DNA of 64,000 nt from Gemmatimonas sp. (GTDB taxonomy: Bacteria > Gemmatimonadota > Gemmatimonadetes > Gemmatimonadales > Gemmatimonadaceae): contig NZ_JAJTHI010000008.1 of the NCBI RefSeq assembly GCF_021298855.1, positions 1-64,000 on the forward strand. Direction: 5' to 3'. The translations under genes were made by a program, and so were the position numbers. Shown here in pieces: positions 2,770-23,994 of this stretch; positions within the stretch are counted from its first letter, which is position 1; each line of letters starts with the position of its first letter. Below the pieces are notes generated by a model. It had not been told where the DNA came from. It saw only the letters and a list, made by a program, of their open reading frames with translations, and did not search any database.

Positions 2770-2773
2770 CGAG

Positions 2774-2845
2774 AGCCACAGATCGGGATTGAACCGATGA
2801 CCGCCCGATTACGAATCGGGTGCTCTACCACTGAGCTACTGTGGC
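2774..2845 (-). tRNA. tRNA-Thr(CGT)
   Basis: The acceptor stem is GCCACAG/CTGTGGC, the anticodon stem CCCGA/TCGGG and the loop TTCGTAA, so the anticodon is CGT. The T-loop has GGTTCAATCC. CCA is not encoded. It is the last gene of the seven-tRNA run. Confidence 0.95.
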
Positions 2846-2872
2846 GGTGACGCGACTGCACCAACACCTGCA

Positions 2873-2954
2873 TGCTCTGGAGCGGACTCGAACCGCTACG
2901 CCTTGCGGCACCGCCCCCTCAAGACGGCGTGTCTACCAATTTCACCACCAGAGC
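2873..2954 (-). tRNA. tRNA-Leu(GAG)
   Basis: A class II tRNA of 82 nt with a long variable arm. The acceptor is GCTCTGG/CCAGAGC with discriminator A, the anticodon stem CCGTC/GGCGG and the loop TTGAGGG, giving anticodon GAG. CCA is not encoded. Confidence 0.94.
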
Positions 2955-3026
2955 GAGGGGCTCGGCTTGCGACCGAGTTTGTGCGACCTGCTCCTGCAAC
3001 CTGCACCTGCTGAGCCCGAACAACGA

Positions 3027-3101
3027 CGGGAGCGACGGGGCTCGAACCCGCGACCTCTCGAGTGACAGTCGAGTGCTCTAACCAAACTGAGCTACGCCCC
3101 C
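3027..3101 (-). tRNA. tRNA-Asp(GTC)
   Basis: The acceptor stem is GGGGGCG/CGCTCCC with one G-U pair. The anticodon stem is CTCGA/TCGAG and the loop CTGTCAC, giving anticodon GTC. The discriminator is G, as expected for Asp. CCA is not encoded. Confidence 0.95.
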
Positions 3102-3147
3102 CAACACCACCAACACCTGCATCCTGCGCCGACTCTCGCGAGTCGAG

Positions 3148-3219
3148 TAGCTCCAACGGGAATCGAACCCGTCTCTCGACCTTGAAAGGGTCGCGTCCTA
3201 ACCGATAGACGATGGAGCC
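3148..3219 (-). tRNA. tRNA-Glu(TTC)
   Basis: The acceptor is GGCTCCA/TGGAGCT with G1-U72. The anticodon stem is CGACC/GGTCG and the loop CTTTCAA, giving anticodon TTC. CCA is not encoded. A CTC isoacceptor with the same G1-U72 feature lies 44 bp upstream in the same run. Confidence 0.94.
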
Positions 3220-3263
3220 GTAGATGTGATTCAGACCATCTGCCTGCAGCAACGTCCAGCGCA

Positions 3264-3336
3264 TAGCGGTAACGGGATTCGAACCCGTGTTCCAGCCTTG
3301 AGAGGGCTGTGTCCTAGTCCCCTAGACGATACCGCC
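3264..3336 (-). tRNA. tRNA-Glu(CTC)
   Basis: The acceptor is GGCGGTA/TACCGCT. The anticodon stem is CAGCC/GGCTG and the loop CTCTCAA, giving anticodon CTC. CCA is not encoded. Confidence 0.94.
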
Positions 3337-3382
3337 GTTGACAGTCGCCTTCGGCGAATGCCGACGGCGGAACAAACAGATA

Positions 3383-3455
3383 CAGGCCCGGAGGGAATCG
3401 AACCCCCAACCGCCGGTTTTGGAGACCGGTGCTCTACCAATTGAGCTACGGACCT
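3383..3455 (-). tRNA. tRNA-Trp(CCA)
   Basis: The acceptor is AGGTCCG/CGGGCCT with discriminator G. The anticodon stem is CCGGT/ACCGG and the loop CTCCAAA, giving anticodon CCA. The 3' terminal CCA is not encoded. Confidence 0.95.
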
Positions 3456-3496
3456 CCGGAGAGCGGCGATGGATCGCTGCCCGCCAGTGTGTTCAG

Positions 3497-3571
3497 GGTG
3501 ACCGACGGGAATCGAACCCGCAACCCCCGGAACCACAATCCGGTGCTCTAACCGATTGAGCTACGGCCACC
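3497..3571 (-). tRNA. tRNA-His(GTG)
   Basis: The acceptor is GTGGCCG/CGGTCAC. An encoded G at -1 faces C73, the tRNA-His identity pair. The anticodon stem is CCGGA/TCCGG and the loop TTGTGGT, giving anticodon GTG. It is the first gene of the minus-strand run His-Trp-Glu-Glu-Asp-Leu-Thr. No clear promoter motif could be fixed upstream, and none lies between the tRNAs, so co-transcription is likely. Confidence 0.95.
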
Positions 3572-3722: not shown

Positions 3723-4289
3723 TCAATCCTTCGCGCGGTCGAGGTACTCGCCCGTGTTGGGATTGACGCGCACGCGCGTTCCCTGCTCCACGAACTCCGG
3801 CACGTTCACCGTGACGCCGTTCTCCAGCTTGGCCGGCTTCGAGGAGGCCGTCTTGGTCGCACCGCGCACCACCGGCGCCGTCTCCACGATCTCGAACACC
3901 ATGGAGTTGGGAAGCTGGATGCCAATGGGACGCCCGTTGTAGTACTCGGCCAGAATCTTGAGCCCCGACTGCATCCACGGCGCCGAATCGCCCAGCGCCT
4001 CCTCGTCGAGTTCGATCTGGTCGTAGTTCTCGGCGTTCATGAAGTGGTACGAGTCACCACCCTGGTACATGAACTCCAGCTCGTGCGTTTCCATGTCCGC
4101 CTTCACGATCGTGTCGGCAGCACGGAACCGATGCTCGAAGCTCGAACCCGTGCGCAGGTTCTTCAGCTTCGCCTGCACCATCGCGCGCAGGTTGCCCGGC
4201 GTGTGATGACGGAACTCGATGACTCGACACGGATCGCCCTCGAACACGAGCACCATGCCACGGCGGATCTGCGTAGCGGAAAAAGCCAT
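3723..4289 (-). CDS. efp: Elongation factor P
   Basis: A 188-residue translation factor that relieves ribosome stalling at polyproline stretches. All three beta-barrel (KOW-like, OB, C-terminal OB) regions are present, with landmarks VQAKLKNLRTG, YHFMNAENYDQI and the C-terminal NPNTGEYLDRAKD. The first-domain loop reads HTPGNLRA. The position matching E. coli Lys34 (PGKGQA) is Asn33, with Leu34 and Arg35 following, so the usual Lys or Arg that carries a post-translational modification is missing. No EpmA, EpmB, EarP or YmfI homologue is in the window. It has a putative terminator directly downstream and sits between the tRNA run and tesA. Confidence 0.95.
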   Translation of the reverse strand: MAFSATQIRRGMVLVFEGDPCRVIEFRHHTPGNLRAMVQAKLKNLRTGSSFEHRFRAADTIVKADMETHELEFMYQGGDSYHFMNAENYDQIELDEEALGDSAPWMQSGLKILAEYYNGRPIGIQLPNSMVFEIVETAPVVRGATKTASSKPAKLENGVTVNVPEFVEQGTRVRVNPNTGEYLDRAKD

Positions 4290-22931: not shown

Positions 22932-23918
22932 TTACTGGCCGAGGACGATGGCAAAGACGAGCGGCGCCACGATGCTGGCATCGGACTCGATGATGTACTT
23001 GGGCGTGTCGATGGCCAGCTTGCCCCACGTGATCTTCTCGTTCGGCACGGCGCCCGAGTAGGACCCGTACGACGTGGTGGAGTCGCTGATCTGGCAGAAG
23101 TAGCCCCACAGTGGCACCTCGGTGCGCTGCAGATCCTGATGCAGCATGGGCACCACGCAGATGGGGAAATCACCGGCAATGCCGCCACCGATCTGGAAGA
23201 AGCCGATGGTGGTGTCCTTCGTCATCTGCGTGTACAGGTCCGCCAGGTACATCATGTACTCGATGCCACTGCGCACGGTGTGGACATTCTTGATGTCCCC
23301 TTCCATGCAGTGCCCCGCGTAAATGTTGCCGTTGGTGCTGTCTTCCCAGCCCGGCACGATGATCGGGATGTTCTTCTCGGCCGCCGCGACCATCCACGAG
23401 TCCTTCGGATCGATCTGGTAGAACTCCTTGAGCTTCCCGCTGTTGAGGATGCGGTACATGAACTCGTGCGGGAAATAGCGCTCGCCCGCCCGGTCGGCGG
23501 CCTGCCACTCCTCGAGCACGGCCTTCTCGATGCGCCGGATGGCCTCGGCCTCCGGAATGCACGTGTCCGTCACGCGATTGAAGTGCTGATCGAGCAGCTT
23601 CTGCTCGTCGTCGGGCGTGAGGTCGCGGTAGTTGGGAACGCGGGCGTAGTGATCGTGGGCCACGAGGTTGTAGATGTCTTCCTCGAGGTTCGCCCCCGTG
23701 CACGTGATCAGGTGCACCTTGTCCTGCCGGATCATCTCGGCCAGCGAGATGCCCAACTCCGCCGTGCTCATCGCGCCGGCCAGGGTGATCATCATCTTGC
23801 CGCCCTGGTCGAGGTGGCGGATGTACCCGTCGGCCGCGTCGATGAGTGCCGCCGCGTTGAAGTGCCGATAGTGGTGACGCAGAAACGCCGTCACCGGCGC
23901 GGAAGTGGGCTGGGCCAT
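22932..23918 (-). CDS. Deoxyhypusine synthase-family protein
   Basis: A 328-residue protein of the deoxyhypusine/homospermidine synthase family. NAD-binding and active-site segments are recognisable: TLAGAMSTAELGISLAEMIR, TCTGANLEED, IPIIVPGWEDSTNGN, TIGFFQIGGGIAGDF and SYSGAVPNEKITWGKL, with Lys300 at the position of the catalytic lysine. In eukaryotes and archaea this enzyme modifies eIF5A/aIF5A. Bacteria lack eIF5A, so homologues probably work on free polyamines or an unknown target. The ATG at 23918 is chosen; a GTG at 23957 would add 13 residues. Confidence 0.85.
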   Translation of the reverse strand: MAQPTSAPVTAFLRHHYRHFNAAALIDAADGYIRHLDQGGKMMITLAGAMSTAELGISLAEMIRQDKVHLITCTGANLEEDIYNLVAHDHYARVPNYRDLTPDDEQKLLDQHFNRVTDTCIPEAEAIRRIEKAVLEEWQAADRAGERYFPHEFMYRILNSGKLKEFYQIDPKDSWMVAAAEKNIPIIVPGWEDSTNGNIYAGHCMEGDIKNVHTVRSGIEYMMYLADLYTQMTKDTTIGFFQIGGGIAGDFPICVVPMLHQDLQRTEVPLWGYFCQISDSTTSYGSYSGAVPNEKITWGKLAIDTPKYIIESDASIVAPLVFAIVLGQ

Positions 23919-23994
23919 GGAAGAGTCGGGTTCTGACGATGCACGGTGCTCCCACACCGGCAGCGGTGCCGGTGTGGTGCCGTTGGCAATCTAA

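Follow-up and report, generated by a model that had tools for sequence, protein, structure and literature searches.

In the textbook picture of elongation factor P (EF-P) and its relative IF5A, proline synthesis depends on a residue at one loop position that is positively charged and in most cases modified. The window analysed here, a stretch of 64,000 nucleotides from Gemmatimonas sp., encodes an EF-P that carries asparagine at this position. The locus raises the question of whether this residue is an isolated oddity or part of a larger change, and of how an EF-P with such a loop might work.

The window encodes a complete EF-P with asparagine at the loop tip

The reading frame at positions 3723-4289 of the minus strand is complete, starts with ATG and encodes 188 amino acids. 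Its product passed the cut-offs of TIGR00038 (efp; 215.4 bits, cut-off 185.8) and PRK00529 (219, cut-off 161), exceeded the respective cut-offs of all three Pfam EF-P domains and stayed below those of both EfpL/YeiP models (135.5 against 216 and 124.5 against 264). An AlphaFold2 model, which was used for confidence and fold only, had a mean pLDDT of 88.6 (82 over residues 31–40) and matched several EF-P chains in Foldseek with TM-scores of 0.82–0.89 (e.g., 9a6x, 1ueb and 6s8z). By domains, scores and predicted fold, the window gene is an EF-P. Directly downstream of it, on the same strand, lie seven tRNA genes (Thr, Leu, Asp, Glu, Glu, Trp and His; 2773-3570).

The sequence-only reading had left room for a second, canonical EF-P in the same genome. 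A profile search of this Gemmatimonadota genome (4.09 Mb, 99.5% complete) returned exactly one EFP_N match, and no second canonical EF-P was matched by this profile; some relatives do carry such a second copy (e.g., G010, G008, G138, G130 and G271). The PPP motif is generally regarded as universal in ValS and served as an indirect marker of EF-P demand. The organism's own ValS retains it (VIPPPNVTA), which indicates that the need for EF-P has been kept.

The features of the gene are the following, with loop positions counted from the tip residue (position 0):

3723..4289, minus strand: efp, elongation factor P, 188 aa, Asn-tip type (reading frame, profile and domain matches)
4182..4202, minus strand: codons of the beta3/beta4 loop, T30-P31-G32-N33-L34-R35-A36 (agrees with the DNA pattern match at 4183-4205)
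4191..4193, minus strand: Asn33 codon, aligned to the tip Lys (E. coli Lys34; alignment)
4185..4187, minus strand: Arg35 codon at +2, coupled with the Asn tip (loop comparison)
4188..4190, minus strand: Leu34 codon at +1, where all Lys-tip proteins read have Gly (loop comparison)
4200..4202, minus strand: Thr30 codon at -3, where 55/56 Planctomycetota Lys-tip proteins have Lys (loop comparison)
4173..4208, minus strand: codons 28-39 (HHTPGNLRAMVQ), the longest invariant run of EF-P in 74 loci (alignment)

In the protein, this region reads R27 H28 H29 T30 P31 G32 N33 L34 R35 A36. The earlier proposal that Asn33 occupies the position of E. coli Lys34, with an arginine two residues later, was borne out: N33 aligned with the tip Lys of Lys-type EF-Ps without gaps and at equal loop length, and Arg35 stands at +2. 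A shift of the loop register caused by an indel was rejected on the grounds of this gap-free alignment. A chance motif can be dismissed: the DNA pattern for HTPGNLRA occurred once in the organism's own genome, and a search of 295 genomes with the reversed pattern as a control gave zero occurrences in each. The proposal also placed asparagine outside the known EF-P types, and here the residue and its alignment stand, but Asn tips are already in print as a count (PMC2821294, PMC6544042 and PMC11611912). Bailly 2010 gives Asn-tip EF-Ps as 2.2% and Volkwein 2019 finds the Asn tip in 2.23% of 1166 sequences (PMC6544042); by tip residue, these belong to the same class as the window EF-P.

The asparagine loop is conserved in Gemmatimonadota

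Residues 28–39 were invariant in 74/74 loci, where they were spelled by 54 DNA sequences, and the next longest invariant run comprised four residues. The EF-P loop is under strong purifying selection. The 74 loci belong to a set of 80 named ones found by similarity, of which 77 have TPGNLRA (the tally also takes in the window and L001, two entries of one gene), the exceptions being TPGKGRG (candidate division KSB1), TTGRGMG (a record titled Deltaproteobacteria) and TPGNWRG (Candidatus Kuenenia hertensis). One further record, a contig titled Candidatus Kuenenia stuttgartiensis (L015), carries an efp that is 89% identical to the Gemmatimonadota gene and is probably mislabelled or mis-binned.

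Across 295 genomes of the phylum, 278 had an EFP_N match and 117 carried the HTPGNLRA DNA motif. Within the window's own family (f1), the motif was found in all 94 genomes with an EFP_N match (hand tally), 92 of which had a single match; the 12 remaining f1 genomes lacked both motif and match, an absence that we read as assembly gaps. Outside f1, HTPGNLRA occurred in 13 genomes of family f2, eight of f4 and two of f5, and the variant HRTPGNLRA in a further 28 f2 genomes (24 read and 4 assigned by identity), so that at least 145 of the 295 genomes carry the Asn-type loop in either spelling. Because all 94 f1 genomes with a match carry the motif and residues 28–39 are invariant, the Asn loop reflects neither error nor decay, and a sequencing error or pseudogene was rejected on the same grounds. 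The Asn type is the sole EF-P match in the window's genome and in most of its family. Among the genomes with more than one homolog, G224 encodes two Asn-type EF-Ps (L357 and L358, both TPGNLRA), and G011 has a second homolog with the loop GAGQMKG (L180) alongside its Asn-type protein.

Asn and Lys types replace one another within families and phyla

The 51 f2 genomes comprised, by hand tally, 31 with the Asn type only, 9 with the Lys type only, 9 with both, 1 with the Asn type plus a Gln-tip copy (GAGQMKG) and 1 without a match. This typing rests on loops read in 37 of the 41 Asn-type genomes and in 5 Lys-type copies, and on identity for the others. Asn-only f2 proteins were 47–69% identical to the window protein and Lys-only ones 31–37%; G213, one of the 31 Asn-only genomes, had two partial Asn-type matches. 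In f4, where eight genomes carry the Asn motif as noted above, two proteins that are 50–53% identical to the window EF-P (L185 and L186) have the loop KPGKGPA. The 30 Lys-type loops of Gemmatimonadota were taken from best-scoring PF08207 matches only.

We also searched 108 genomes of Planctomycetota, sampled by family and not by motif, of which 105 had a match, and read all 134 EF-P homologs. In these 105 genomes, the Asn tip was present in 50 (as the only homolog in 31), the Lys tip in 55 and both in 1. The totals of 189 Asn and 97 Lys unique proteins fetched do not stand for frequencies, because similarity or the motif itself had guided the choice of many loci.

Several other loops were met in Planctomycetota. 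For the EfpL-like rows labelled G, S or A, as for rows labelled D, the letters are those of an alignment column and not reliable tip residues; the EfpL-like rows read P[S/T]xRxG, with Arg as the likely tip. A separate clade of EF-P paralogs (L338-L345; three tree rows, support 100/100) has [KR][NS]DRR replacing PGK and occurs in 7/8 genomes alongside an Asn-type EF-P. Six Lys-tip EF-Ps (L274, L309, L310, L314, L318 and L331) have the loop LSKGGG, with neither Pro nor Gly before the tip; P32S and G33S were reported to abolish the activity of E. coli EF-P (PMC6544042). Four Asn-type proteins (L332-L335) read TRGNLRT, without Pro at -2 and with both the Asn and the +2 Arg kept.

The tip residue and its neighbours are exchanged together and recurrently

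Reading the loops side by side revealed an exchange of Lys at -3, Lys at 0 and Gly at +1 for Thr at -3, Asn at 0, Leu, Trp or Lys at +1 and Arg at +2. In Planctomycetota, Arg at +2 was present in 48/50 Asn loops versus 0/56 Lys loops, the two exceptions being PGNKPA and PGNKGG. Gly at +1 was found in 0/50 versus 56/56, with Leu, Trp or Lys in its place in all 50 Asn loops, and Lys at -3 in 0/50 versus 55/56, the Asn loops having Thr (45) or Ala (5) instead. Pro at -2 was shared by 43/50 Asn and 47/56 Lys loops. Volkwein 2019 lets Pro accompany 100% of Asn tips (PMC6544042), a rule that has exceptions in Planctomycetota, since only those 43 of 50 Asn loops carry it. Over all unique proteins fetched, which were partly selected by motif, the coupling pattern held in 187/189 Asn and 97/97 Lys proteins. 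One Lys-tip protein, the PGKGRG loop of KSB1, has Arg at +2.

A maximum-likelihood tree of 88 proteins (9 from Gemmatimonadota, 77 from Planctomycetota and 2 others) was calculated with the loop columns 27–40 left out. On this careful tree the distribution of Asn tips requires 13 changes, and well-supported branches force at least 9 of them. A tree constrained to a single clade of all 33 Asn rows is worse by 300 log units, and a single Asn origin over these rows was rejected (p-AU 0.0002). For the four Gemmatimonadota Asn rows taken by themselves, a single origin is compatible with the data (p 0.31). When 123 rows with Asn or Lys tips were placed on a quick tree, only six pairs lay on supported branches, that is, six firm switches, so that the minimum number of interchanges is six by the quick and nine by the careful tree.

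Nine independent Asn/Lys pairs are joined by supported paths on the loop-masked careful tree. Across them, Gly at +1 went with Lys in 9/9 (p 0.004), Arg at +2 with Asn in 7 or 8 of 9 (median p 0.008), Lys at -3 with Lys in 7/9 (p 0.016) and Thr at -3 with Asn in 6.4 on average (median p 0.03), and Pro at -2 had no association with the tip residue. A scan of 187 columns, made on the quick tree and with the residue tested in each column picked after seeing the data, ranked columns 33, 34, 35 and 30 first; no comparable covariation outside the loop was found among the 187 columns, the next being column 26, where the difference averaged 2.8 out of 6 pairs. Judged from these comparisons, the loop exchange is coupled and recurrent, and Asn33 is one of four coupled positions and no single oddity.

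Tree error, paralogy, transfer or brief recombination events involving Asn- and Lys-type genes might have produced some of the apparent switches as artefacts. In favour of this speak the differing numbers of forced changes (9 on the careful and 6 on the quick tree), the genomes that hold both types, two rows with long branches on the careful tree and the pair L228/L207, whose domain-I flanks (0.42 and 0.38) are less alike than the rest (0.55). No sign of domain-I replacement was seen in the other two of the three sister pairs compared (L185/L350, flanks 0.50 and 0.58, rest 0.59; L319/L327, flanks 0.81 and 0.50, rest 0.52), and the AU test stands against one Asn clade. We consider such artefacts unlikely, though of some weight. 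They would touch the number of switches alone and are compatible with any of the mechanisms discussed below; the coupling is independent of the exact switch count.

Comparison with known EF-P types and search for modifying enzymes

The lysine-type EF-Ps (E. coli, with beta-lysyl-Lys34 made by EpmA/EpmB, and B. subtilis, with aminopentanol-Lys32) share with the window protein the three domains, the fold, the seven-residue loop, Pro at -2 and Gly at -1; unlike them, the window EF-P lacks Lys both at the tip and at -3, lacks the +1 Gly and carries an Arg at +2. With the arginine type (Pseudomonas and Thermus; rhamnosyl-Arg made by EarP in Pseudomonas) it shares a guanidino group in the loop, but its tip is Asn33, with the Arg two positions later, and it has Pro31 at -2, a residue nearly absent in Arg-type EF-Ps (PMC6544042). 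EfpL/YeiP is an EF-P family protein whose loop works unmodified; it differs in its extended loop, its Arg tip and its role as a second copy beside EF-P (PMC11611912), whereas the window EF-P loop has standard length. A hypusine-type substrate of deoxyhypusine synthase (DHS) needs a Lys acceptor, where the window EF-P has Asn33. The idea of a loop that works unmodified through its own shape is shared with the actinobacterial PGKGP type, which keeps the tip Lys and the +1 Gly that are both gone here. That type, reportedly the subject of work by Pinheiro in 2020, is said to be unmodified.

Neither of the two modification enzymes searched for was found in 121 genomes of the phylum, in contrast to E. 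coli (EpmA) and Pseudomonas (EarP). EpmA (TIGR00462) was over the cut-off in 0/121 phylum genomes and in 2/14 control genomes, and the best match to this model in the window's own genome was lysine-tRNA ligase. EarP (PF10093) was likewise found in 0/121 phylum genomes, with no match in the controls of that set; the same search recovered it in 2/195 Planctomycetota (best E 5e-143), which served as positive control. Beside efp, the window holds a GDSL esterase, an ABC transporter and the tRNA cluster, and no candidate modifying enzyme. In a clustering of the flanking frames of 137 loci, overlapping reading frames dominated the outcome, and no candidate enzyme emerged.

Farther away lies a gene of the DHS fold:

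22932..23957, minus strand: deoxyhypusine-synthase-like gene (PF01916), about 19 kb from efp, judged an unlikely modifying enzyme

Its product (341 aa) is over the Pfam DS cut-off and far below that of every NCBIfam equivalog of the fold (best 104.5 bits against 450). By hand tally, DHS-like genes were present in 65/67 Asn-type versus 10/15 Lys-type genomes, counts that are uncorrected for kinship and in which loops were read or motif-typed, with one Asn type inferred by identity. Three of the five Lys-type genomes without the gene belong to one outlying family (f10), two Asn-type genomes (G038 and G103) lack it, and some Lys-only genomes have one. With such counts on both sides, DHS-like genes are common with the Asn type but neither needed for it nor special to it. 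In six Gemmatimonas-like genomes (G000, G017, G037, G065, G071 and G076), efp and the DHS-like gene lie about 19–31 kb apart on one contig, and their proximity in this genus looks like shared synteny.

DHS attaches its group to the amine of a lysine, and asparagine has no such amine. A modification of the Asn-type EF-P by this bacterial DHS homolog, as Volkwein 2019 suggested for Lys/Asn loops, would fit the location of the gene in the window, its higher tally in Asn-type genomes and the DHS co-occurrence noted in the same paper (PMC6544042), which itself gives the acceptor as lysine. Given this chemistry, the occurrence of the gene in Lys-only genomes and its absence from the two Asn-type ones, and a product below every NCBIfam DHS cut-off in a fold whose relatives make homospermidine, we regard such a role as very improbable.

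The Asn or the +2 Arg could also be modified by an enzyme not yet known, with the coupled residues serving as its recognition motif, as the loop does for EarP. In most of the known EF-P types the tip is modified, EarP acts on an Arg of the same loop, over half of bacteria have none of the known modification enzymes according to Volkwein 2019 (PMC6544042), and the strictly conserved 12-residue stretch could be a recognition site. On the other side, the window has no candidate beside efp, PGNLR contains no N-X-S/T sequon, and many separate switches would require either a different enzyme or one enzyme that had spread repeatedly. Such a modification seems to us a minority prospect, though one of some weight.

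A possible lysine-free way of working

The reading that we prefer, and to which we attach an even chance, is that of an alternative, probably unmodified loop. The usual K-P-G-K-G loop is replaced by T-P-G-N-[L/W/K]-R; in this reading, the new loop would act without known modification, and the Arg at +2 together with a reshaped turn would stand in for the modified tip Lys. In its favour stand the single EF-P match in the genome, the selection on the loop, the coupled and recurrent exchange, the lack of EpmA and EarP matches in 121 phylum genomes and the PPP motif kept in ValS. A fuller claim would see in PGN-[L/W/K]-R a second catalytic solution that needs no lysine, was reached by convergence, works unmodified through the Arg at +2 and serves as the only EF-P in Gemmatimonadaceae and a large part of Planctomycetota; this claim is plausible but somewhat less likely than even. 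In E. coli, K34N is inactive, like K34A, K34M and K34Q (Volkwein 2019, PMC6544042), so a single Asn does not work in the canonical loop. Among the proteins read here, no Asn tip was met without accompanying loop changes, and the inactivity of K34N fits a need for these other changes. In the Thermus EF-P, the tip Arg contacts C75 (PMC2821294).

Several observations weigh against this alternative-loop reading. A guanidino group nearby or the loss of the +1 Gly is not obviously benign, as residual activities in E. coli EF-P are 20% for K34R and 3.8% for G35N (and 21.1% for Q36S; PMC6544042). Arg at +2 is missing from 2/50 Asn loops and present in one Lys-tip protein, DHS-like genes occur in 65/67 Asn-type and 10/15 Lys-type genomes, and there are long branches, with no more than six firm switches on the quick tree.

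The inactivity of K34N could also point to a weakened or specialised EF-P that has lost its catalytic contact, with other factors carrying polyproline synthesis; YfmR, YkpA/YbiT and YebC2 act on such stalls. Decay, however, would not hold 12 residues invariant or repeat the same coupled exchange, and 31 Planctomycetota genomes have no EF-P homolog other than the Asn type, which is also the single match of 92 f1 genomes. The window organism's own ValS keeps its PPP motif. We consider this explanation quite unlikely.

The sequence-only reading had also allowed for PGNxR to be a widespread and already characterised class. Widespread it is; a paper that characterises it was not found in our literature search. 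No paper turned up for PGNLR in the EF-P literature, the accessible text of Bailly 2010 and Volkwein 2019 does not describe the coupling of +1, +2 and -3 or repeated switching, and we found no account of an Asn-type EF-P or of a coupled, recurrent exchange, although one could exist in a subscription journal.

That the loop exchange was made several times suggests, as far as sequence comparison goes, a second way for EF-P to work. This is relevant to the finding of Volkwein 2019 that no known EF-P modification enzyme is encoded by over half of bacteria, and the question is directly testable, because the exchange is small enough to be transplanted into E. coli EF-P. A conserved, lysine-free class in which the tip residue has been replaced repeatedly would mean that a different route to this chemistry exists, and it would account for the failure of single substitutions in the E. 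coli protein.
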